Below are positions 187-19,230 of a stretch of DNA of 21,165 nt, piece by piece (position 1 is the stretch's first letter; every line of letters begins with the position of its first letter). Location of the stretch: the IMG/VR virus record IMGVR_UViG_3300037840_000591, positions 1 to 21,165 of that record; one strand, given 5' to 3'. A model generated the notes under the pieces. The model was given only the letters and a program-made list of their open reading frames with translations. It was not told the DNA's origin and did no database searches. The position numbers and the translations under genes are program-made. The DNA comes from a virus.

Positions 187-355
187 TCGGAGCACGCTGT
201 ACGAGAGCTATGCCACATTGCTGCTCTATTACCCGAGCTGGCGACCGGCCGATGTGAAAGAGATGGTCCCTCGGGAGCGGACCTATTGGCTGCAGATGGG
301 TAAGTGGCTGATCGATCAGCGTGAGTCCCAGATGAGGACCCACTCCAATGCCTGA
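179..355 (+). CDS. Second chaperone-like frame upstream of the tape measure, possibly read by +1 frameshift
   Basis: Frame 2 carries a convincing protein segment (TLYESYATLLLYYPSW, then ERTYWLQMGKWLIDQRE) that ends at TGA 353-355. The open frame runs back to ATG 26, but upstream of about 185 its translation is a Ser/Arg-rich shadow of the frame-1 gene, so ATG 26 is unlikely to be the start. Between 186 and 260 there is no ATG or GTG in this frame. The only options are CTG 197 (behind GGAG at 189-192), TTG 218, or entry from the upstream gene by a +1 shift. The left coordinate given is the first codon after the proposed shift. The LYE...W/R-rich pattern resembles the small second chaperone or gp26-like protein seen beside T4-type base plate proteins (from memory). 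It overlaps the tape measure start by 8 bases (ATGCCTGA). Confidence 0.55.
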   Translation, partial: VSNRSTLYESYATLLLYYPSWRPADVKEMVPRERTYWLQMGKWLIDQRESQMRTHSNA

Positions 356-3300
356 CGCCTATCCCGGGATGCCCCCCACCAGTTACTCACCTGGCGGCGG
401 TGGAGGTGGGGCCACACCATTGCCAGGGTCCTCCAAGATGGCGGTTGATTCCACCGATCTGGTCACGTTGCATACGCGCCTGCAGACGGTTATTTCCGAT
501 ATCGGCGCCCTGGAGACCAGACTCAAGAGCCTCGGCAAGTCGCCGGTCCTGTCGCAGCTGAGTGGGAAGGGTGGCGGCGGTGCTGGCGGGAGCGGGCTTA
601 CCGTCGGCTCTTTCGGTGGCGGTCAACAGGGTGGAGGGGGTGGCCCGACTGGTCTCGGGCGTGTGGCCAGTGTTCTTTCGGCCGGAGCCTTCGGCGAGTT
701 TGCAGCACAGGGAGCGGGAGCGGTCAATACGCAGCTGGCTCAGATTGCCGGGCCCGGCATGGCCAGCAATCTGATGTCCACGCAACAGAATGCCATTATG
801 GGCCGGGGCACAAATCAGAGTGGTCCTGGCGGTGTGACCGGTACCTCCCAAGCGTTGTCTCGAAACGTCTCCAGCCTCAGCGTTGGTGATTTGGCGCAGG
901 GGCAGTCGGTACTCATGAATAACCCGCGATTGATGACCGGCGCCGGGTCGCCAAATCAGGCGAACTTGTTTAGCAACATGAACAACTTTTCTCAGCTGAC
1001 CGGTACGGGTGCAGCGGGTGCAGCACAGTTCGCAACATCGCTTACTTCTCCGGGTGCTCTGGCCATGATCCAGCTGTATGGGGGAGGAACACAGGGTGCA
1101 TTGATCAGTCCCGATGGGACGATTCATGGGTCGCAGCAAACCTTCCAGGCACTGATGAAGGCGTTCTCGCAGGGCCGCACATGGAGCCCGGGCCAGCTGA
1201 AAGCACTGGCTCTCGATGACCAGGCGTGGGCTCGAATCAATGCCAACTGGGGTCAGGGTACCAATGCCAACTTCACCATGACCGAAATCAACGCCGTTCG
1301 ACAGTGGGCGGCGGCCGGTGGTGATGTCAACAAGGCGAAGCAGGCGGTGAGCCGTACTCCGGCGATTACCGGGCAGAAGAAGACGACGGCGGAGACCCGG
1401 GCGAAGACGTCGGCGTTTCAAGCGACGGTGCCGACTCAGAACCTGGCAAATCAAGCGGCGACTAATGCATACAACGCCGGGGCGAACGCCATTGACCAAA
1501 ACCCGGGGATGGCTAACTTCATGTTGGGTGTCACCAAGGCCGGAACAGCGGCGTTGTCACTCGCCGGGCATCTCGCCATTTTGGATGCGGCTATCAAAGT
1601 GCTCACCGGATCGAGTGTCATCAGCAAGCTGTTGGGTCTCGGGAGAGGAAAGATTCCCGGGATAAGTAGGGTTCCCAAAACCAGCCTTCCTGGTACCGGT
1701 ACGGGAGAGATTCCCGAAGTGGCTGTCGGTGCGGCTGAGGCGGGCGGTACCGGTGCTGCTGCCGCGGTAGGTGCAGGTGTTGCAGCTGTAGCCGGGCTAA
1801 CCGCACTTTCATTGTGGAGCGATGTTCATAATGCTGCAGCTGAGAATAAAACAGGAATGTTTGGCGGCGGTATCAATAAAGGTGCTCTCAAGGCTGTTAC
1901 CAAAGCTCCTCTTCCCACTGTTTCTAAGAACCTGTCTCCCACGCTTCTGAATGCTCTGCAGAAGTACTACAACCCCGACGGCACGTTGAAATCGGGTACA
2001 CCGATGGGTGACCCGACGGGGGAGACATCGACGGCGGGTCTTGATCCAGCTATGCGGAGACGGATGACCGCCATGATGGCAGCGAATCCAAATCTCAAGA
2101 TCGCTTCCGGCAAGAGATCGGCGGCACAGCAAGCGTTTCTCTATGCGGCCAAGGGTGGAAAGGGTGTGGCGCCTCCCGGCCAGTCGGCGCACCAGACTGG
2201 CAAAGCAGTTGACGTTGGGCCGCCATCACAGTTCGGGTGGGTGGCCAAGAATGCATCACGCTTCGGTCTTGGCCGTCCGGCTCCGCAATCAGAACCCTGG
2301 CATCTCCAGGCCATGGGCGATCCGACCGCTAACACCGTGACCGGCGCTCAAGTGGTGGCCGGAGCACAGGCTGATATCGGTACTCCTTACGTTTGGGGTG
2401 GGACCACTCCCGGTCAAGGTCTCGACTGCTCCGGTTTGGTGGTGGCGGTTTACAGCAAGCTTGGGATTTCCGTGCCGCGTACTTCGCAGGCGCAGGCTTC
2501 TTTCGGAACAGCGGTAGCAAGCCTTGCTCAGGCGCAGCCTGGCGATCTCATCATTTACAACGAGCAAGGAGAGGGACCGAACTCGCATGTGGCCATCTAC
2601 ATTGGAAATGGTCAACAAATAGCGGCACCGTATACGGGAAAGACCGTCGAGGTCGAGAGTGTCGATACACCGAACATTTCGACTATCCGACGCATTGTTG
2701 GTGGTGGAGCAGGAGCGGCTGCGGCAAAGGCGGCTCAAGGAGCAGTCGGGACACCGAGCACGGATAGCGCCAAGCACTCTTCCGGCGGGGCGGCAGCGGT
2801 GGCCAACATCAACAACAACTTTTTGGCCAACGTGAAGGGATCCTGGTTGCAAGGTGGAGCCATGACCGGGCCCGGACCAAGTTCCTCCACGACAGCGGCA
2901 GCGCCCAGTTCCAGTGTGACGGCGGCGGCAGGTAGTTCCGGTTCGGGGTCTGGTGCAAATCTTTCGACCACGCCCACACAGCCTGGCGGTATGTCAGCGT
3001 CAGCGGTGTATCAGTTGGCTTTGGGTGCAGGGCTCAGTCCCAAGGCTGCTCAGATTGCCACGGCGGTGGCGCAGGTGGAGTCGGGGTTTAACCCGCAGGC
3101 TGTCGATCACGATGCGAACGGCACAACTGACTACGGCCTCTGGCAAATCAACAGCGTGCATGGTGTAAGCACCGACATGTTCAACCCAACCGCTGCGGCA
3201 GCTGAAATGGCCAAGCTGACAAGCAACGGACAGAACTGGGGACCATGGGCGCCTGACTTTGGAGCATCGAACTACGGGGGAAATCCGGCGATCGGTGGCA

Positions 3301-3545
3301 AGGTTGCAGCGGCCATGCAATCCCTTGGGTTCATGGGCGACCCGTTTACCGGCGGCGGGATGATGGGCGGTGGTGCGGGAGCCATGAGCGGTGGTGGTCG
3401 GCGTTCGACGGGCGGTGGGGGGATAACCCTCAACATGCCATTGCAAGTGGTGAGCGCTTCCCAATCTGAGGCGCAGCGGTTGGTGCACATGGTGATGCAG
3501 GAGCTGAACAAGCAGACCGGTTTGTCGATTGTGAGTACAACGTAA
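348..3545 (+). CDS. Tape measure-type tail protein with three peptidoglycan hydrolase domains
   Basis: This 1065-residue protein starts at ATG 348 behind GAGGA (334-338). Residues 1-120 are Gly-rich with a short coiled-coil-like helix (about 35-63). Hydrophobic stretches lie near 386-425 and 470-490. An M15/VanY-like D,D-peptidase domain spans about 565-655, with SAHQTGKAVDV (H615, D622) and EPWH (E649, H652). An NlpC/P60 domain spans about 663-780, with catalytic C694 in DCSG and H747. A lysozyme/SLT-like domain spans about 890-1000, with E911 in QVESGF and then DYGLWQIN. Low-complexity Ser/Gly/Ala linkers separate the domains. Its position after the chaperone frames and before the baseplate genes is the tape measure slot; the N-terminal half would set tail length, and the enzymes would open the cell wall during injection. 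It could instead be a large tail-tip lysin separate from the true tape measure. The hydrolase calls are firm. Confidence 0.8.
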   Translation: MPDAYPGMPPTSYSPGGGGGGATPLPGSSKMAVDSTDLVTLHTRLQTVISDIGALETRLKSLGKSPVLSQLSGKGGGGAGGSGLTVGSFGGGQQGGGGGPTGLGRVASVLSAGAFGEFAAQGAGAVNTQLAQIAGPGMASNLMSTQQNAIMGRGTNQSGPGGVTGTSQALSRNVSSLSVGDLAQGQSVLMNNPRLMTGAGSPNQANLFSNMNNFSQLTGTGAAGAAQFATSLTSPGALAMIQLYGGGTQGALISPDGTIHGSQQTFQALMKAFSQGRTWSPGQLKALALDDQAWARINANWGQGTNANFTMTEINAVRQWAAAGGDVNKAKQAVSRTPAITGQKKTTAETRAKTSAFQATVPTQNLANQAATNAYNAGANAIDQNPGMANFMLGVTKAGTAALSLAGHLAILDAAIKVLTGSSVISKLLGLGRGKIPGISRVPKTSLPGTGTGEIPEVAVGAAEAGGTGAAAAVGAGVAAVAGLTALSLWSDVHNAAAENKTGMFGGGINKGALKAVTKAPLPTVSKNLSPTLLNALQKYYNPDGTLKSGTPMGDPTGETSTAGLDPAMRRRMTAMMAANPNLKIASGKRSAAQQAFLYAAKGGKGVAPPGQSAHQTGKAVDVGPPSQFGWVAKNASRFGLGRPAPQSEPWHLQAMGDPTANTVTGAQVVAGAQADIGTPYVWGGTTPGQGLDCSGLVVAVYSKLGISVPRTSQAQASFGTAVASLAQAQPGDLIIYNEQGEGPNSHVAIYIGNGQQIAAPYTGKTVEVESVDTPNISTIRRIVGGGAGAAAAKAAQGAVGTPSTDSAKHSSGGAAAVANINNNFLANVKGSWLQGGAMTGPGPSSSTTAAAPSSSVTAAAGSSGSGSGANLSTTPTQPGGMSASAVYQLALGAGLSPKAAQIATAVAQVESGFNPQAVDHDANGTTDYGLWQINSVHGVSTDMFNPTAAAAEMAKLTSNGQNWGPWAPDFGASNYGGNPAIGGKVAAAMQSLGFMGDPFTGGGMMGGGAGAMSGGGRRSTGGGGITLNMPLQVVSASQSEAQRLVHMVMQELNKQTGLSIVSTT

Positions 3546-10244: not shown

Positions 10245-13200
10245 ATGCCTCTGTATGCCCCATTTGGGAATGCGATCTTCGGGGAGACACTCTTCGGTGC
10301 TCCGCCGTCGAACACCATTTTCACCACCATGTCGATCGTTCCGCTCGGGTACGACACGCTGGAGGTCAACTGGACGCCACCCGGCGGCGTATGGACGGAG
10401 CAGGTGCTCCTTCGCTCCTCCTATGGGATCCCGGTCAGTACGTTCGACGGGGTAACACTGCTCGACCAGACCCATTCGTTCTCCACCCAGTTCGTCGACC
10501 AGGGGCTCAAATCAGGGCGGTTCTACTACTACGCCCTGTTCTGCTTCAGCACAGTGCTGGACTCCTTCGTGCTGGCGGGGACGGCGCAGGGGCTGGTGCT
10601 CACCGATTACGGATTTGGTGGCACCTACCAGTCCTGGCTGCCGGAATGGTACCTCGAACTGGACGCCAACTTCGGCACCAATGCACAGCCGCTGGGACCG
10701 CTTGCCCGCTACCTGAACATGATCGGCTACGAGACGGATTGGATCCGGTCGGAGATCGAGACGTTCGTCACCTTTGCCAATGTTGATTTCATTTCCGGCG
10801 CTCTGCTTCCTGCTTTCGGGGCCAACTACGGCGTACCCTATGAGCCGAAACTCGGGATGACCCGCTCGCGGGTACTGGTGAAGAACGCCGTGTTCCTCTA
10901 CAAGAACCGCGGCACGGCCAACGGGATCGAGGCAGCGGCGTCGGCATTTTCCGGCTATGGCTGCGAAGTGACCATCGGGCCAAACATTGAAATCCAGCTG
11001 GACGACTGTGCTTTCGACCGATCGGTTGGACACTGGCGTTCGACCAACTCCACCTCGACGATTACGGCAATCCCGGCTTCGACCTACGCGCTGACACCTC
11101 CGCACACCACGTATAACCCGGTGCCGGGGTTGGGCAACTTCCTGACCACAAAGGGCTACCTGCCGATTAACAACGACAACGTGGCTCTTATCTCGGCTGG
11201 AGTGGCGGCGGGATCGACGGCGTCTTGGGTGCAGCTGATGCCAGCCATGAGCCCCTCACCTCGTGAACACCTTTCCATGGCTTACAGCTCAGGTTCATCG
11301 GCTGTTTTTCTGTTCGGCGGTTTGGCCAGCGGCTCCATTCCTCAGAGTGACATGTGGTCCTTCAGCGGATCATCCTGGACAAATGTCACGCCCGCTGCTC
11401 CGACGCAACCGTCAGCTCGTCTTCTTTCGTCGACAGCTTACGACACAAGCACTTCAACCATCGTTTTATTCGGTGGTGAATCCTCGGGTGGATCGTTTTT
11501 CAATGACACCTGGTCCTGGAACGGAACTACGTGGACTCAACTATTTCCAGCCACGAGCCCGACGCCTGCGCGATCTGGGGCTGCTTTGGTCTATGACACC
11601 AGCACAGGCACAGTCATTCTTTTCGGCGGCTACAACAACACGAACGGGGCTCTCAATGACACTTGGTCGTGGAACGGTACAACGTGGTCGAAGTTGTCAC
11701 CAGCAACCAGCCCTCCGGCTCGAACCCAAGCTGGAATAGCTTATGACGTCGGGTCTTCCAATCTCATTCTGTTTGGTGGGTTCGACTTCAACGGTAATGC
11801 ACTTAGCGATACCTGGACTTGGAACGGAACGACCTGGACTCAGGTTTCCATCGGTGCCAGTCCATTTGGTCCTCTCGGTGGCGTCTCGATGTGTTATGAC
11901 GCCAACAAGGGCGCTGTCATTATGTTTGGGGGTCTCTATTACACGAGTGGGATGCCGACCTACACCAATGGGAGTGCTTGGTGGAACGGGACAGCATGGG
12001 TGCAGTTTGCTGTTGTTACCAGACCATCAGCTCGGTCGAACGCCAGCATGGTATATGACACCAGTGCTGGTAATACCGTGCTGTTTGGCGGTCTTGGGGT
12101 TTCCTTGACAAACGACACCTGGACGTTTAACGCCTCGACAAATGTGTGGACTCAGCAATCTCCGGCGACGAGCCCAAGCATTCGATCTTATCAAACAATG
12201 GCCTACGACACACTTTCTTCGACCGCCGTTTTGTTTGGCGGGTTTACCTTGAATGATACGTGGTCTTGGAATGGCACAACTTGGACGCAGGTAAATCTGT
12301 CCACGAGCCCTCCAGCTCGCTACGGCGCCATGATGGCCTACGACACCAATACACCGGCCATGATTCTGTTCGGCGGGACCACGGCATCGACTGCGCTCAA
12401 CGACACGTGGTCGTGGAGCGGTACCACCTGGACGCAACTCTTTCCAGCGGCCAGTCCGACGGCCCGATGGGGCTCCTCGATGGCTTATGACTCGGCCACG
12501 ACCACATTGGTGCTCTTTGGCGGCCAGCCCTTCGGTACCGACCCGTCCACGGCGGTCAACGAGACGTGGACATGGAACGGCAGCACATGGTCGCATCCTT
12601 CTCCGGCCACCAGCCCTTCTGCTCGCAGTTTTGCCGCCATGATCTTTGACACCTCCGAAAACAGAATGGTTTTGTTCGGCGGTATCAATACCAGCGGTGT
12701 TTTGCTCAGTGACACCTGGCTGTGGGATGGGACCACCTGGACGCAGCAGTTTCCGGTCACCGTTCCTCCCGCCCGCTCAAATGCACGGATGGTTTACAAC
12801 AGCGTGCTGGGTGAAGCGGTCATGTTCGGCGGAAATGGGATTTCAGGAAAGCTGAATGACACTTGGTTGTGGAACGGTACGACATGGACATTGGCTCCGG
12901 CCACAGCAAGCAACCCGTCCGCTCGTTCTGATTTCGGGATGTCCTTTGATACGGCGCTGTCGGCCACTGTCCTGTTCGGTGGCACGACAAACGGCATCTC
13001 CAGCCTGCTGAGTGACACCTGGTTGCTCACCAGCGCGGCCATTTCCTCCGCTCTGGGTCTCAGCACGTGCACCTCGGCCACGGCGACCACCCTCGGGCTC
13101 CCGATCCCTCAGCAGGCCACACCACCGACCTACGTGTTGTCGGCTTATTTCCAGAACATCCCCCAGGCCACGCCGGTCACCCGCTCCTTCTTCATGCAGA

Positions 13201-14153
13201 TCGACTGGTATGGCCTCAACGGAGTATTGATCAGCTCGACGGCCGGGACGCCCATTACCGAGGTCAGTGGAACGTGGACCCGGGCGTCGGTGGTGGGTAC
13301 GCCACCGGCCGGGGCACTGACGTTCGGCCGGACGGTGAAATCGAGTGGTGCCCTCCTGGTCGGCGATCTCCATTTGATGGACGCCGAGCAGGTCGAGGTG
13401 AACACGCTGGCCACGCCGGGCCCAACCTCGTGGCAGCCGCCGAGAGATATCAAATGCAACCTCCTCCCTGTTCGGCAGAACTTGATCACCAATCCGCAGG
13501 GGTTTGCCGGTGTCACCGGATGGACTGTTACCAATGGGACAGAGCAGTCCTCCCATACCATGGCCACTCCGCCGCTTATTCTGTGGCCAGCCGAGACCAG
13601 TGGCGGCTTTGTACTCACTGCTACGTCGACATCAAATATCGTCTTCTCGACGACGTGCCCGGTCAACCCGGGTGTGCCTTACACCTTCTCGTGTTACGCG
13701 AGACCGGCGGTAACCGCACGTACCGTTCAGCTCACCATCCAATGGTTGACGGCGACCAACACTCTGATTTCAGCTCCCTCGGTCATGTTCAACGAAACGG
13801 TGGGTGTCTTTGTCCGCGGTGCGGTCATCGATGCCGTTGCTCCCTTGAACGCCGCCAAGGCGACCATTCAGATCACAGTGGAATCACCGGCGAATACTGA
13901 AATCCATTACATTGGGGCGATCTTGTTCGAGCCTTCTGGCTTTCTCCAGCCCTATTTCGATGCCAACTTCTCACCGGCCAGTGACTACATTTTCGAGGGC
14001 GCCGTGAACAGCTCGGTGTCGGACTACTACCCCTCCCTGGCGGCCAGCCTGTCCCGGTTGGTGGCGGTGCTGCCTGACTACATTCCGATCGGGTCGACGT
14101 TCTCGTTGTTCGTCGGCGCACAGGCCTTGACCAACGCCGGGTTGGTCGGCTAA
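10245..14153 (+). CDS. gpI-like baseplate protein fused to kelch repeats and jelly-roll-like domains
   Basis: The protein has 1302 residues; ATG 10245 directly follows the previous TAA. Residues about 25-115 look Fn3-like. About 127-247 match P2 gpI-type tail proteins (WLPEWYLELDANFG, then MTRSRVLVKNAVFLYKNRGT and NGIEAAASAFSGYG). About 250-327 begin a jelly-roll/CBM-like domain (LDDCAFDRSVGHW). Residues 328-930 are twelve kelch-type repeats. About 930-1060 appear to complete the first jelly-roll, and about 1077-1245 are a second, similar one (LITNPQGFAGVTGWTV, then TYTFSCYAR-like strands). The C-terminus may be a trimerisation or wall-facing tail. gpI joins fibre to baseplate, so this is probably both connector and receptor-binding, sugar-recognising protein. 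Ordinary gpI proteins are only about 200 residues. Confidence 0.75.
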   Translation: MPLYAPFGNAIFGETLFGAPPSNTIFTTMSIVPLGYDTLEVNWTPPGGVWTEQVLLRSSYGIPVSTFDGVTLLDQTHSFSTQFVDQGLKSGRFYYYALFCFSTVLDSFVLAGTAQGLVLTDYGFGGTYQSWLPEWYLELDANFGTNAQPLGPLARYLNMIGYETDWIRSEIETFVTFANVDFISGALLPAFGANYGVPYEPKLGMTRSRVLVKNAVFLYKNRGTANGIEAAASAFSGYGCEVTIGPNIEIQLDDCAFDRSVGHWRSTNSTSTITAIPASTYALTPPHTTYNPVPGLGNFLTTKGYLPINNDNVALISAGVAAGSTASWVQLMPAMSPSPREHLSMAYSSGSSAVFLFGGLASGSIPQSDMWSFSGSSWTNVTPAAPTQPSARLLSSTAYDTSTSTIVLFGGESSGGSFFNDTWSWNGTTWTQLFPATSPTPARSGAALVYDTSTGTVILFGGYNNTNGALNDTWSWNGTTWSKLSPATSPPARTQAGIAYDVGSSNLILFGGFDFNGNALSDTWTWNGTTWTQVSIGASPFGPLGGVSMCYDANKGAVIMFGGLYYTSGMPTYTNGSAWWNGTAWVQFAVVTRPSARSNASMVYDTSAGNTVLFGGLGVSLTNDTWTFNASTNVWTQQSPATSPSIRSYQTMAYDTLSSTAVLFGGFTLNDTWSWNGTTWTQVNLSTSPPARYGAMMAYDTNTPAMILFGGTTASTALNDTWSWSGTTWTQLFPAASPTARWGSSMAYDSATTTLVLFGGQPFGTDPSTAVNETWTWNGSTWSHPSPATSPSARSFAAMIFDTSENRMVLFGGINTSGVLLSDTWLWDGTTWTQQFPVTVPPARSNARMVYNSVLGEAVMFGGNGISGKLNDTWLWNGTTWTLAPATASNPSARSDFGMSFDTALSATVLFGGTTNGISSLLSDTWLLTSAAISSALGLSTCTSATATTLGLPIPQQATPPTYVLSAYFQNIPQATPVTRSFFMQIDWYGLNGVLISSTAGTPITEVSGTWTRASVVGTPPAGALTFGRTVKSSGALLVGDLHLMDAEQVEVNTLATPGPTSWQPPRDIKCNLLPVRQNLITNPQGFAGVTGWTVTNGTEQSSHTMATPPLILWPAETSGGFVLTATSTSNIVFSTTCPVNPGVPYTFSCYARPAVTARTVQLTIQWLTATNTLISAPSVMFNETVGVFVRGAVIDAVAPLNAAKATIQITVESPANTEIHYIGAILFEPSGFLQPYFDANFSPASDYIFEGAVNSSVSDYYPSLAASLSRLVAVLPDYIPIGSTFSLFVGAQALTNAGLVG
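11226..13031 (+). repeat. Twelve tandem kelch-type coding repeats
   Basis: About twelve units of 45-55 codons each follow the pattern SP.AR....M.YDT.....VLFGG......L(N/S)DTW(S/T)WNGTTW. Individual units are diverged at DNA level, but the DTWSWNGTTW segment stays recognisable. Each unit should form one blade of a beta-propeller; twelve blades fit two six-bladed propellers. Rows 11461-11520 and 12181-12240 are 29/60 and 28/60 GC by hand count, against 36/60 at 10681-10740 and 43/60 at 13261-13320 in the flanking parts of the same gene. Confidence 0.85.
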
Positions 14154-14198: not shown

Positions 14199-14225
14199 AT
14201 GCTGGTCAGCCTTGCGTTCGCATGA
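14199..14225 (+). CDS. Mini-ORF (8 residues) coupled to the membrane protein
   Basis: ATG 14199 has a good ribosome site (AAAGGA, 14186-14191, spacer 7). It encodes MLVSLAFA and stops at TGA 14223-14225, which overlaps the ATG of the next gene as ATGA. The next gene has no ribosome site of its own, so this mini-ORF probably delivers ribosomes to it. The peptide itself may have no function. It is too short to prove from sequence alone. Confidence 0.4.
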   Translation: MLVSLAFA

Positions 14226-14497
14226 CCCTTTTGCTCTGCGGCCTGGCTGGCTTCTTCGCATCGCAGCTGGTCAAGACCGTCCTGCTGCCGATCAGGCCGG
14301 TGGCCCACTGGCTCAAGCCGATCCTGGCCCTCGGGGCATCTCTCGGCGTGGCGGCTGTCTTTTACTCAAATCGTGTGGATTACCTGGTGGTTTATGGAGT
14401 GGCCGGGGCCGGATTAGCGGTGATCGCTCACAAGATTTACCGCCTCTTTTCCATTGGTGGGGATGTGTTGGTTCGGGAGATGTTTCGGAGGAGGTGA
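14222..14497 (+). CDS. Small membrane protein, holin candidate
   Basis: The 91-residue protein begins MTLLLCGLAGFFASQLVKTV. Three hydrophobic segments are visible at about 2-23, 31-48 and 52-70, followed by a basic C-terminal tail ending REMFRRR. The small size, multiple membrane segments, charged tail and position just after the tail genes fit a class I-like holin. No endolysin gene is adjacent, so the role is uncertain and it may be another phage membrane protein. Initiation appears to depend on coupling to the preceding mini-ORF. No family-specific motif was recognised. Confidence 0.6.
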   Translation: MTLLLCGLAGFFASQLVKTVLLPIRPVAHWLKPILALGASLGVAAVFYSNRVDYLVVYGVAGAGLAVIAHKIYRLFSIGGDVLVREMFRRR

Positions 14498-14642: not shown

Positions 14643-14675
14643 GGGATCCTTCTCTTGTCAGGGGAGGAGGATCCC
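14643..14675 (+). promoter_or_regulatory. Hairpin that buries the ribosome binding site of the next gene
   Basis: GGGATCCTTCTCTT (14643-14656) can pair with GGGAGGAGGATCCC (14662-14675) as 14 base pairs, including three G-T wobbles, around a 5-base loop. The right arm contains the Shine-Dalgarno sequence GGGGAGGAGG and ends on the base immediately before ATG 14676. Translation would be blocked unless the stem opens. Confidence 0.55.
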
Positions 14676-15875
14676 ATGTCTGATTCACCCCATCAACTGG
14701 TTTTGGGGTTCCTCGGAGGAGGCGCCGTTCGGCGAGAAAATGCCATAGCGCTGATCGAGGAGTTCATTACCGCCCACCACCGCAACAACAAGGGGGCGGA
14801 GGTTGCCTTCTACATCGGCATCGAACCGTTCACCGAGTCGCTGAACGATCTCGCTGATTACTGCACCACGTCGGGGTACAAGCTCGGTCTGGTCGGCCAC
14901 GAGGCGGCATTACGTGGCTCCGAGGTGGCTCCTTATTTGCGGGATGCGGAGGGTCGGAAGTTCGCCGTTCCTGATAAGCGCTCGATCGGTGATTTCCTCG
15001 TTAAGGTCATTGCCGTCGGTGACGTCAGTCCACGGTTGTTTATCCTGGCCGACCCAGACGAAGATGACGCCACGTATTTGGCGGTTGAAACAGCTATTAG
15101 CATGAGCATCCCGGTGCGCACGCTTTTAGGGGGGCTTGAAATGGTAATAATGGAAACCGATGAGGAAGAGGAGACTCTTGTAATGAGCCCAGTGCGCGAC
15201 GATGAGGAAGAGATTTACGACGAATCAGACGTTGAAGAGGACGAGCTTGAAGACGATCTCGACGAGCCGGATCCCGATGAAATCGAAGACGCTGAGCTGA
15301 TCGAGGATGAGGATCTCGACGAGGGGGAGCTGGAAGAGGAGCCTGACGAGGAGGAAGACGCCGTCGAAGATATCGACGACAGTGATGAGCCCGAGGACGA
15401 AGAGCCCGAGGGCGATGAGGAGAATGAGGAAGAGGAAATGCCCGCACGTAGAGCATCCAAGAAAGCTGCGGCCAGTAACGGCAAATGGACCCAGTCCAAG
15501 CTGGAAGCCCTGGCCGATCGGGACCGGGATGAGTTTTACGCCTTGGCCGCCCAGTACAGCATTACACCGGGGCGGGGCATCAAGATCTCGAATATGGTGA
15601 CCCGGATTCTGGAGGCGCTCGGTGAGCCGGTAGCAAAACGCACTCCGACCAAGAAGGTGGCGAAGAAGCGTGTCGTCAAAAAGAAGGCGATAGCACGTAA
15701 GGCACCGGCCAAGAAGGCGGCGGCGAAGAAGCGGCCTGCCACGCGCACCGTTCCGCCGAAGCGTGCAGCTGTAGTGGCAGTACCGTCGACCAACTCGAAG
15801 GTCGAACACGCAGCCGCACTGAAGCTTATTGACGGGGCGCAGAAGGCGCTGGAGGCGGCGGCCAAGCTGTTGTAG
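14676..15875 (+). CDS. Rossmann-like / acidic / SAP-like / histone H1-like protein
   Basis: The protein has 399 residues. An in-frame TTG at 14583 exists, but ATG 14676 follows GGGGAGGAGG, and the region before it is structured RNA rather than protein-like. Residues 1-157 look Rossmann-like, with FLGGGAVRRENA near the start and RLFILADPDEDDATYLAVET later; this resembles SLOG-type nucleotide-binding folds, from memory. Residues 159-254 are dominated by Glu and Asp. Residues about 270-313 (KWTQSKLEALADRDRDEFY, then a second helix) resemble a SAP or Rho-N-like DNA-binding motif. Residues 315-360 are Lys/Ala/Arg-rich with repeated AKK motifs, like histone H1 tails. A C-terminal helix ends ALEAAAKLL. 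It probably binds DNA or RNA; the acidic middle may shield the basic tail. The exact role is unknown. Confidence 0.75.
   Translation: MSDSPHQLVLGFLGGGAVRRENAIALIEEFITAHHRNNKGAEVAFYIGIEPFTESLNDLADYCTTSGYKLGLVGHEAALRGSEVAPYLRDAEGRKFAVPDKRSIGDFLVKVIAVGDVSPRLFILADPDEDDATYLAVETAISMSIPVRTLLGGLEMVIMETDEEEETLVMSPVRDDEEEIYDESDVEEDELEDDLDEPDPDEIEDAELIEDEDLDEGELEEEPDEEEDAVEDIDDSDEPEDEEPEGDEENEEEEMPARRASKKAAASNGKWTQSKLEALADRDRDEFYALAAQYSITPGRGIKISNMVTRILEALGEPVAKRTPTKKVAKKRVVKKKAIARKAPAKKAAAKKRPATRTVPPKRAAVVAVPSTNSKVEHAAALKLIDGAQKALEAAAKLL
15426..15440 (+). promoter_or_regulatory. Possible internal start for the SAP/H1-like half
   Basis: GAGGA (15426-15430) precedes an in-frame ATG at 15438 by 7 bases. 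Initiation here would give a 145-residue basic protein without the Rossmann and acidic parts. Glu-rich codons create GAGGA by chance, so the support is weak. Confidence 0.2.
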
Positions 15876-16028: not shown

Positions 16029-16103
16029 GTGAACCCCTGCGACCCCACCCAGGTGCTTGCTGAGTGCGCCCATTTTTCAGTCGACGGCGCCCTCAATGGC
16101 TGA
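16029..16103 (+). CDS. Short leader ORF (24 residues) coupled to the helicase loader
   Basis: GTG 16029 follows AGGAG (16020-16024) with a short 4-base spacer. It encodes MNPCDPTQVLAECAHFSVDG and four more residues, and stops at TGA 16101-16103. Its end overlaps the loader start by 8 bases (ATGGCTGA), the same style of overlap as the tape measure junction at 348-355. The loader has no ribosome site of its own, so coupling is plausible. No known family was recognised. Confidence 0.35.
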   Translation: MNPCDPTQVLAECAHFSVDGALNG

Positions 16104-16734
16104 CCGGCTACTCACCGAAACGAACATTCCCGAACAGTTTCGAACGGCGCTGTACGGCGACTACATCATCGACGATGATGGCGGCGACCCACGCATCTTG
16201 AAGCAGTTGATCGAGTGGGACCCGTCGCCGAAGAAGCCCTCACTGCTCATGTACGGCAAGCCAGGCCTGGGCAAGACTCTCTTGGCCTGTGCCACGCTCA
16301 ACGAGTACCAATCCCAGTTCAGGCCACCTAACGGGGTCGACGACAGCGTTATCACCGTGCTGCGCCAGGAGCGGTTCCCGGTCTATTTCGTCCAGCTGGC
16401 CGAATGGGTCGGGCTCCAAATCAGATCGTTCGGGCTGCAGAAAGAGGCCACCGCCGGGATCAGAGATCCGACCGAGTATTTGGAAATCGATCAGCTCCTC
16501 CAAGACCTGATGCGCCGGGTGCAAATGTTGGTGGTAGACGACGTCGGCAAGGAGCACACCACTGCTACCGGGTTTGCCCAGGACGCATTTGATTTGCTCG
16601 TGCGCACGCGACACAACCGGGGGCTGTGGACGATTTACACCTCGAACGTGCCGCTGTCGCAATGGTCGGCGCAGTACTCCGATTCGATGCAGAGCTTGAT
16701 CCGCCGCTCCTCTCTCGTGCTGAAGTTCCGATAA
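16096..16734 (+). CDS. DnaC/IstB-type AAA+ ATPase, helicase loader
   Basis: The protein has 212 residues from ATG 16096. A TTG at 16057 would add 13 residues, but it shows no protein-like conservation that I can see. Walker A is GKPGLGKT (residues 54-61), and Walker B is LVVDDV with D148 and D149. A sensor-like TIYTSNVPLSQW follows, and then SLIRRSS, whose arginines fit the finger of DnaC-type ATPases. These proteins place the DnaB helicase ring on single-stranded DNA. The DnaB-type helicase two genes downstream and the primase after it support this role strongly. The DNA-binding N-terminal domain of long DnaC proteins is short here (about 50 residues). Confidence 0.82.
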   Translation: MADRLLTETNIPEQFRTALYGDYIIDDDGGDPRILKQLIEWDPSPKKPSLLMYGKPGLGKTLLACATLNEYQSQFRPPNGVDDSVITVLRQERFPVYFVQLAEWVGLQIRSFGLQKEATAGIRDPTEYLEIDQLLQDLMRRVQMLVVDDVGKEHTTATGFAQDAFDLLVRTRHNRGLWTIYTSNVPLSQWSAQYSDSMQSLIRRSSLVLKFR

Positions 16735-17129
16735 TGGAACGGGGCCAGCTCGGATTCGAAGAACAGCTGTCCACCGTCTTCGTGTTCGAGGGTCTCATTG
16801 CCCAGCCGCCGTCGAGGAAGTTCCGATACAAGCGCCTGGAAACATGGTCACTCAATGTGCAGGTGCTCGATTACATGGCGGATCTGATCAACCGGCACGG
16901 TGTTCCGGTTGACGTGGTTACGTGGCAGCCTCCTTCTTTCGCCGAGGCTGTACACGATAGCCTCTGGGATATGGGTGTCTTCGTGCGCGAGACGAAGAGC
17001 GGCACCTACGGTTACCTCTCGCAACACATCGCCACCGACACAATGGTCAGCCTTGTCTACGACCCGGACCCGCATCACCGGTTCGGCTACGGGTACAAGG
17101 CTCGTGAGTTTTCGATTGGACGGCTCTGA
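16734..17129 (+). CDS. Unknown protein between helicase loader and helicase
   Basis: The protein has 131 residues; ATG 16734 forms TAATG with the loader gene. A longer in-frame reading back to 16626 only shadows the loader. I do not recognise the family with certainty. The arrangement TVFVFEGLIA, then LDYMADLINRHGVPVDVVTW and FAEAVHDSLWDMGVFV alternates strands and helices like a small Rossmann or HAD-like domain. The position of the catalytic DxD of HAD enzymes is occupied by VFVFEG, so any such fold would be inactive or different. The tight coupling on both sides (TAATG, then TGATG) places it in the replisome operon, possibly as a loader or helicase accessory factor. Confidence 0.6.
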   Translation: MERGQLGFEEQLSTVFVFEGLIAQPPSRKFRYKRLETWSLNVQVLDYMADLINRHGVPVDVVTWQPPSFAEAVHDSLWDMGVFVRETKSGTYGYLSQHIATDTMVSLVYDPDPHHRFGYGYKAREFSIGRL

Positions 17130-18361
17130 TGGCAGATTTGGGACGAGCGATGATTTCGAAGATCATCAACGACGGCGACATGGTGACCTCCCTCGGGGCG
17201 GGCATCCAGTCCCACTGGTTCGAGGACACCGAGGCCCGGGAAGTGCACCAATGGATGGTCGAGTACTTCAACCGGTACAGTGCGGCGCCCACCCACCGGG
17301 CCCTCCGACGGCAGTTTCCCAACTACAAGATCCTGTCTACCGTCGAGCCCTACGCCTATTACATCGACCTGTTCCGCGAACAGCGGCGGCGCTCCATTCT
17401 CGTCGACAGCCTGGTTGATGCCGACACGGCGCTGAAGGAGGACGACCACAAACGGGCCGAGGAAGCCTTCTCCGGCGGCCTGGTGCGGCTGGGGAAAGAG
17501 GTCAGTTCACTCAGTGACGAGAATGCCGTCACCAAGCTCAAGGATCGGTATGAGAGCTATCGGGAGCGGTGCCGCAACAAGGGGAAGATCACCGGTGTTC
17601 GCACCGGCTTTGCCACCCTCGATATGGCGACGAGCGGTTACCACCCGCAACAGTTCGTGGTGCTCGGTGGCACAGCGAAACAGGGCAAATCGTTCATCCT
17701 CATGAAATCGGCCATCGCCGCCCAGGAGCAAGGGAAGAAGGTGTTGTTCCTTTCGTTCGAGATGTCGGCTTTCGAACAGCTCTGTCGGTACGACGGCATT
17801 ACCTGCGGGGTCAATGCCATGCACTTACAAGTTGGTGAGCTGTCCTTTTCGGAACGGAAGAAGCTCCGCATGGGCATGCAGAACCGGAAGGGGATGCGCT
17901 CGTTCATCATCTCCTCCGACATCTCGGCCACCACAACCATCTCCGGTCTGGCGGGCAAGATCGAGCAACACCAGCCCGACATCATCTTCATCGACGGCGC
18001 CTACCTCATGGAGTCCGAGGGTGGAGAGCTGCCTCAGTCGTCCCAGGCTTACACGGCCATCTCCCGGGGCCTCAAGCGGCTGGCTCAGCGCATCGACCGG
18101 CCACTTATCGTCACGGTGCAGGCACTGCCTTCGAAGATGGACAAGAAGGAGCAGGCCGTCACCATGCACAGTCTGGGCTGGACGAGTGCCTGGTCCCAGG
18201 ACGCCGACCTCATCCTCGGGGCGGAGCGGGTCTCCGACTCGACCATGCTCAAGCTGCGGGTGGTGGCCGGGCGGAACGTGGCGCCTCAAGAGATAGCGGT
18301 TGCGGTCAACTGGCAGGAATCGCTGATCGAGGAAATCGACCTGCCTGACGAGGACGAGTGA
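17129..18361 (+). CDS. dnaB-like: DnaB-type replicative DNA helicase
   Basis: The protein has 410 residues from ATG 17129 (TGATG junction). An N-terminal helical region (about 1-125) corresponds to the primase-interacting domain of DnaB. A linker helix and ITGVRTGFATLDMATSGYHP lead into the RecA-like domain. Walker A is GGTAKQGKS (G180-S188), SFEM follows as the DnaB H1a motif, and Walker B is DIIFIDG with D289. A loop follows with TAISRGLKRLAQRIDRPLIV, then AWSQDADLILG and an arginine-containing VVAGRN. This is the canonical DnaB order. It would unwind DNA 5' to 3' at the fork as a hexamer, loaded by the upstream ATPase and working with the primase encoded next. Confidence 0.88.
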   Translation: MADLGRAMISKIINDGDMVTSLGAGIQSHWFEDTEAREVHQWMVEYFNRYSAAPTHRALRRQFPNYKILSTVEPYAYYIDLFREQRRRSILVDSLVDADTALKEDDHKRAEEAFSGGLVRLGKEVSSLSDENAVTKLKDRYESYRERCRNKGKITGVRTGFATLDMATSGYHPQQFVVLGGTAKQGKSFILMKSAIAAQEQGKKVLFLSFEMSAFEQLCRYDGITCGVNAMHLQVGELSFSERKKLRMGMQNRKGMRSFIISSDISATTTISGLAGKIEQHQPDIIFIDGAYLMESEGGELPQSSQAYTAISRGLKRLAQRIDRPLIVTVQALPSKMDKKEQAVTMHSLGWTSAWSQDADLILGAERVSDSTMLKLRVVAGRNVAPQEIAVAVNWQESLIEEIDLPDEDE

Positions 18362-19230
18362 TGGACGACATCGAAGAGGTCGTCACCGAACTGGGTCTCA
18401 ACATCGCCAGCGTCGGCCACGAGATCTCGGCTCACTGTCCATTTCACAGTGACTCACATCCGTCGTTCTCGATCAACGCCAAATCAGGTTTGTGGATCTG
18501 TTATCAGTGCGGTCGCGCAGGCAACTTCAACATGTTGGTGGAGCAGGTCGGCGGCCGGGGGGTAGCCCAGTCGACCGATCTACTCCGCGAGATCAAGCGC
18601 CGACACGTCGGCCGGAAGAGACCGGAACCGGAAGCTGAGCCCGAACCGCCGGATCCATTGTTCATCTTCGCCCGGTATGAGGATTTCAGGTGGCCGCCGA
18701 AATGGGCTTGGCATGAACGGCGGATCAAAGGTGAGGTCATTGAACAGTACGGCCTCAAATGGGACCGGGGTTGGATCATTCCCATTTGGGCCCCGGAGAT
18801 GACGGACGAATGGACCGGCCTGTGGGGCTGGCAGTTCAAGCGGTTGGATTACGTTTCGAACTACCCGAAGCAAGTGAAGAAGTCACGGACTCTGTTCGGA
18901 CTCCGTGAGCTTGACTCCACCAAATCGGTTGCCCTGGTCGAATCGCCACTCGACGTAGCCCGGTTGGCGTCGGTCGGAGTGTCGGCGGTGGCCGCCTATG
19001 GCGCCTTCGTCTCCCTGACACAGCTGCGGCTCCTCATCGAAGTGGCCGACAGCATCGTACTGGCCCTCGATGGTGATTTCGAAGGGGAACGGCAGATGCA
19101 CAAGATCTACCGATTCTTGGCCAAACAGGTGCCGACACGACGAGTCTCCTATCCGGCGGGATGTAAGGACCCAGGTGATTTGAATGACCAGCAAGCAAGG
19201 AGGGTATTTGATGTCGAAGCAAAAGTTTGA
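18361..19230 (+). CDS. dnaG-like: DNA primase with CHC2 zinc finger and Toprim domain
   Basis: The protein has 289 residues from ATG 18361 (TGATG with the helicase stop); GTG 18358 is an equally close alternative. The zinc finger has C26, H29, C47 and C50 (CPFH and CYQC), the standard CHC2 pattern. A charged Glu/Pro linker follows at about 85-100. The Toprim domain includes VESPLDVARL with E194 and ALDGDFEGE with D237 and D239, the metal-binding acidic residues. It ends shortly after DPGDLN, a motif common in phage Toprim primases. The helicase-binding C-terminal domain of bacterial DnaG is missing, as in many phage primases. It makes RNA primers for lagging-strand synthesis beside DnaB. The end overlaps the next gene by 20 bases. 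Confidence 0.87.
   Translation: MDDIEEVVTELGLNIASVGHEISAHCPFHSDSHPSFSINAKSGLWICYQCGRAGNFNMLVEQVGGRGVAQSTDLLREIKRRHVGRKRPEPEAEPEPPDPLFIFARYEDFRWPPKWAWHERRIKGEVIEQYGLKWDRGWIIPIWAPEMTDEWTGLWGWQFKRLDYVSNYPKQVKKSRTLFGLRELDSTKSVALVESPLDVARLASVGVSAVAAYGAFVSLTQLRLLIEVADSIVLALDGDFEGERQMHKIYRFLAKQVPTRRVSYPAGCKDPGDLNDQQARRVFDVEAKV

Follow-up and report, generated by a model that had tools for sequence, protein, structure and literature searches.

The locus described here raises the question of what a single phage polypeptide does that joins a Rossmann-like head to a very acidic stretch and, further on, to a lysine-rich, histone H1-like tail. The protein is encoded in a virus record of 21,165 nt (the window, by which we mean this whole stretch of DNA), and an earlier note had proposed that the charges of its two halves could cancel out until DNA competes. 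The features of the locus are collected in Table 1. The gene is preceded by a strong ribosome-binding site, GGGGAGGAG, located at about 14661-14669 just 5' of the ATG, and a scan for sigma-70 promoters found none near it. It is placed in the order baseplate/tail module, the gene itself, DnaC-like loader, DnaB, primase and SNF2-type helicase.

Table 1. Coordinates of the features of the 399-aa protein and of its neighbours in the window.
Feature	Coordinates	Strand	Basis or remark
399-aa protein	14676..15875	+	ATG start; conserved in seven phages
Alpha/beta SLOG-like head, residues 8-157	14697..15146	+	AlphaFold2 model, PDB/BFVD structure matches, motif counts
Acidic linker, residues 159-254	15150..15437	+	charge analysis; length and charge differ between relatives
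Helix-loop-helix (SAP/Rho-N-like), residues 273-315, PGRG loop	15492..15620	+	model; Rho N-terminus match; loop conservation
K/A/P-rich histone H1-like basic tail, residues 314-370, predicted disordered	15615..15785	+	net +19; low pLDDT
C-terminal helix, residues 374-398, modestly amphipathic	15795..15869	+	structure model; relatives end helix-like too
Small hydrophobic protein, probably membrane (holin-like), directly upstream	14222..14497	+	
DnaC-like helicase loader, conserved downstream neighbour	16096..16734	+	profile matches; linkage
DnaB-like replicative helicase, same module	17129..18361	+	
DnaG-type primase (zinc ribbon and Toprim)	18358..19230	+	

The charge analysis agrees with the earlier description of an acidic stretch followed by a SAP-like part and a lysine-rich tail. 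Of the 96 linker residues 62 are D or E and only one is K or R (net charge -61), while the disordered tail contains 14 K, 6 R, 14 A and 7 P, with the best basic segment (residues 321-363) reaching net +20. One correction is necessary: the two halves are unbalanced and the acid is dominant. The whole protein has a net charge of -45 and a pI of 4.4, and the head has a net charge of -9. Further, the protein ends in a helix which was absent from the earlier description and whose amphipathicity is modest (shuffle p 0.001-0.09).

The model of the C-terminal part contains three short helices (residues 273-282, 284-293 and 304-315, pLDDT about 80-86), the disordered basic tail and the terminal helix. 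In arrangement and size the three helices may resemble Rho N-terminal and SAP domains; among solved structures the N-terminus of Rho comes closest, with a weak Z of 4.5 across 44 residues. No match to Pfam SAP or Rho_N was obtained up to E 10, and a profile of the helix-loop-helix found no SAP, Rho or Lsr2 match among PDB sequences. A SAP-like identity of residues 273-315 appears plausible but weak. The conserved PGRG loop recalls, by eye only, the RGR loops of AT-hooks and of Lsr2; a likeness to Lsr2 was rejected for lack of profile support. The tail shares its K/A/P-rich, disordered and basic character with mycobacterial HupB and with bacterial Hc-type H1-like proteins. This is a likeness of composition: no HU domain was found in the 399-aa protein, and the matches of the tail to H1-like models were weak and stayed far below the cut-off (18.1 of 135 bits for Hc2, 17.6 of 100 bits for Rv3852).

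With the full 399-aa protein as query, nothing was found in the INPHARED phages or in IMG/VR. Such direct searches were blind because of the low-complexity charged halves, and relatives came only via the neighbouring genes. Searching with these genes revealed six relatives (L003, L004, L010, L068, L072 and L074), in which the head, an acidic region, a helix-loop-helix and a C-terminal helix-like segment are found in identical order and at the identical gene position. In an unrooted tree they form one clade with the window protein (100/100 support), which we call the window clade. Since the same domain order is present in six other phages and all belong to one clade, the arrangement is not a product of chance. 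The G-R/K-G loop is present in all seven members, and the stretch after the helix-loop-helix has a steady length of 80-92 aa. The acidic regions are variable in length (106-180 aa) and in net charge (-42 to -93). The basic tail carries +15 to +20 in four of the relatives, and L010 (+3) and L074 (-5) are essentially without a net-basic tail.

The earlier note had suggested profile and structure searches of the head, and here the two approaches gave different answers. AlphaFold2 modelling of the head alone, based on four sequences, resulted in a Rossmann-like alpha/beta structure of alternating strands and helices (pLDDT 84.9, pTM 0.82), as had been proposed. In the model the head has the three-layer alpha/beta architecture by which the SLOG fold is recognised; about five strands make up the parallel-type sheet at its centre. 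The top PDB match was YpsA of B. subtilis (2nx2; Z 11.6, 3.4 A, 135 residues). The following PDB rows were clearly behind, at Z 9.2 and 9.1, with TM1055 at 9.1 and the N-terminal domains of TRPM proteins at about 7-8; we take TM1055 and the TRPM domains to be of the SLOG type too. The best matches in BFVD were an unnamed phage protein and then a 374-aa protein of phage BRock, and several YspA/DUF2493 SLOG proteins of phages were also among them.

At the level of sequence no such tie was found. The head had no SLOG profile match in Pfam, and PF10686 and PF06908 did not match the head-family genes, even though BRock and GiJojo do contain genes that PF10686 detects. These other genes encode a separate YAcAr-type SLOG protein (BRock, G007, 27233-27448; GiJojo, 88799-89026) with PF10686 above the cut-off. 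When the head was compared in hhalign with YpsA, for which a profile had been made from 33 genomes, E was 0.46, which is inside the shuffle range. The GxD/E motif of YpsA, which corresponds to G53 and E55 (PMC6459960), is not kept: with positions compared by eye, the window clade has mostly F-T-E/D and the distal family described below has G-Q. In addition, YpsA is without acidic linker, helix-loop-helix and basic tail. Since no sequence profile ties the head to SLOG, the tie is by fold only and we use the term SLOG-like.

Nevertheless, the head has conserved positions of its own. The motif R-x-N-x-x-A-L after strand 1 is present in 7/7 heads of the window clade and in 48/48 distal heads, and a related GxGxTTxxN is found in 6/6 heads of the BRock clade; further motifs of the head are D/N-P-x-x-D-D behind the fifth strand and G-L at the end. 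According to a comparison with SLOG motifs at the level of sequence, G-H or G-P is kept in most of the window clade. A polar loop after strand 1 is a general feature of nucleotide-binding Rossmannoid domains (PMC9503650). We infer that the ligand is of the nucleotide type, since ligand sensors have this fold and since polar residues are conserved in the nucleotide-contact loop (PMC9503650). The earlier suggestion that the head could sense a nucleotide was offered as a possibility, and as such it gains from the modelled fold, which matches a nucleotide- and ligand-binding superfamily.

The family of the head extends beyond the window clade. GiJojo gp96, which was picked by gene order, has the same gene position, a head of equal length and K/A-rich sequence, and its relative in BRock then emerged as the second structural match mentioned above. 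The latter is gp120, the sole annotated 374-aa protein in BRock 5.1-104.9 kb. Like GiJojo, the cultured Streptomyces phages BRock, LuckySocke, Alone3 and pSt2308 carry a head-family gene. BRock gp120 (APC46382), GiJojo gp96, LuckySocke gp104 and pSt2308 XTS03745 share the homologous head, the position before the loader and a certain amount of K/A-rich sequence. They are annotated as hypothetical, their basic segments are weak, and no long acidic stretch or helix-loop-helix was seen in them. In the examined stretches of Gordonia phages Gray and Pupper, Brevibacterium phage Cantare and Mycobacterium phage Myrna, DnaB and/or DnaC were present and no head-family gene was found. When the alignment of the heads was used to scan bacterial genomes, no matching protein was found.

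A direct profile comparison between the window clade and the BRock clade was not significant (42/100 shuffles were as good), and the connection was provided by a third group. A search with the DnaC-like loader led to 72 distant phage loci; where these contained enough sequence, an ORF of 170-260 aa was located upstream of the loader, and many of these ORFs match both head profiles. In hhalign, the profile of the distal heads matched both clades, the window clade at E 7.9e-9 and the BRock clade at E 1e-10; none of 60 shuffles was as good and the reversed controls were far off. In an ORF-level search it found BRock at 6e-9 and window-clade members at 0.0003 to 0.6, ahead of other outside ORFs, with reversed ORFs starting from 1.2. 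On the basis of these sequence profiles, the heads of the window clade, of the BRock clade and of about 100 distinct distal proteins from phage contigs are assigned to a single homologous family. This family is undescribed: it is unlisted in Pfam, PHROGs and NCBIfam, the distal representatives had no PHROGs or Pfam match, and searches of Pfam, PHROGs, NCBIfam and PADLOC yielded compositional or below-cut-off matches only. This is in line with the earlier statement that no described system has the exact arrangement of the window protein, since none was present in these four libraries and INPHARED.

The strongest clue to function, which was missed in the earlier note, is the fixed position adjoining the helicase-loader gene. 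In 62 of the 72 loader-found loci, the head gene is on the same strand, and 654-1131 bp separate its end from the loader ORF. Of the remaining ten loci, nine are too short on the upstream side and one (L078) is without a head gene, so that the linkage holds in 62/63 testable loci. Starting from the heads, 67 loci extend far enough downstream, and every one of them has a loader 719-1027 bp further on; DnaB follows 2.2-2.5 kb downstream of the head gene in 55 head-found loci. In the distal locus L136, a 315-aa ORF is located between head gene and loader. Because many contigs are common to both searches and the phages are related, these numbers demonstrate strong conservation of gene order and are not a count of independent events. 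Moreover, gene order can stay fixed because the phages have a common ancestor and not because the genes share a function.

Several neighbouring genes deserve mention in their own right. At the position of the small hydrophobic protein, GiJojo and LuckySocke have an annotated membrane protein. Between loader and DnaB, a small conserved protein without family match is encoded (window, about 16734-17129; L004, 18641-19063; L010, 9594-9998). The 1302-aa tail protein at 10245-14153 contains a TIGR02242-type domain below the cut-off and many kelch/galactose-oxidase-like repeats (NDTWSWNGTTW, VLFGG). These repeats are absent from the L003 relative (743 aa) and present in the L004 relative (1009 aa), which suggests an exchangeable receptor-binding propeller. 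The 1065-aa tail-associated protein at 348-3545 combines a VanY-type peptidase with NlpC/P60 and SLT lytic domains in a single chain. L010 additionally encodes, at 17809-18888, a 359-aa protein of strongly mixed charge with a long R/D/E-rich N-terminal part and a C-terminal D run.

Our preferred reading, which we hold tentatively and to which we give somewhat less than an even chance, is that the 399-aa protein assists the phage replication module as a non-structural accessory. The SLOG-like head would bind either a small ligand of the nucleotide type or a partner protein. The linker, acidic and disordered, would serve as a flexible tether that repels DNA, while docking on a replication partner or oligomerisation could be the task of the C-terminal helix. 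In the window clade only, the helix-loop-helix and the basic tail, which lie between linker and terminal helix, may contact DNA or RNA. The closest known kind of protein is found in phages whose SLOG-type domains are fused to nucleic-acid-acting parts (HTH, HNH, exonuclease, helicase) and for which ligand-gated action was suggested (PMC9503650). Those fusions are described as sporadic and were recognised as SLOG, whereas here a separate sequence family, in synteny with the loader, carries an acidic linker. It counts against a role in replication that the gene borders tail and lysis genes as well as the replication module.

This border position would also suit a late or virion protein that is packaged or injected with the genome, its basic tail touching the DNA, since the gene comes straight after tail and lysis-type genes. 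However, it equally precedes the replication module and most relatives are without a basic tail, so we regard a virion role as quite improbable. We are similarly sceptical about the neutralisation of the two halves, within or between molecules, with DNA displacing the acid as in acidic histone chaperones. Both charged segments are present with the helix-loop-helix between them, and across the window clade acidic and basic charge correlate (r 0.75, n 7). On the other hand, the acid exceeds the base several-fold in every member (about 3- to 14-fold where the tail is net basic), and L010 and L074 keep the acid without a net-basic tail. Among 100 distal proteins an acidic segment is clear in 69 and weak or absent in 31, and a strong basic segment is present in none. 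The acid being widespread without the base, neutralisation is not a general mechanism of the family and is not supported as the explanation of the locus, even if charge segments possibly tune the DNA affinity within the window clade.

The head could itself be the nucleic-acid-binding part, acting like DprA as a replication or recombination mediator which binds single-stranded DNA and aids the loading of replication proteins. DprA lies within the SLOG superfamily, a DprA-like phage protein was at rank 10 in BFVD, and some jumbo phages keep DprA, suggested to be an extra single-strand-binding protein (PMC7824862). Yet no sequence match to DprA was obtained, and acidic heads (-9 in the window protein, -7 to -27 over the first 150 residues of distal relatives) are unlike a DNA-binding surface, which makes such a mediator a rather doubtful candidate. 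A counter-defence function appears unlikely as well, if slightly less so. According to it, the head would bind or destroy an ADP-ribose-type immune signal, as proposed for viral SLOG domains acting on host NAD/ADPR signals (PMC9503650), while the D/E stretch would mimic DNA for host nucleases or nucleoid proteins, acidic DNA mimics being known in phages (PMC2806950). But the stretch is of low complexity, variable in length and not a constant part of the family, no PADLOC model matched, and the strict linkage to replication genes is unexpected for a counter-defence gene. Finally, it is tempting to speculate that the family is a general regulator of the replication module, in which the head gates helicase loading on an NAD/ADPR-type or dNTP signal and the charges of the window clade form ligand-dissolvable replication condensates; this is the least probable of the possibilities considered here.

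The preferred reading, a replication-module accessory with a SLOG-like head, is important for the following reasons. A protein family absent from Pfam, PHROGs and NCBIfam is the constant neighbour of the helicase loader in all testable head-found contigs, and its fold is otherwise that of nucleotide sensors. The idea is directly testable because BRock, GiJojo, LuckySocke, pSt2308 and Alone3 are cultured Streptomyces phages which carry the gene. If the link to the loader is functional, phages of this group would tie their replication to a small-molecule signal.
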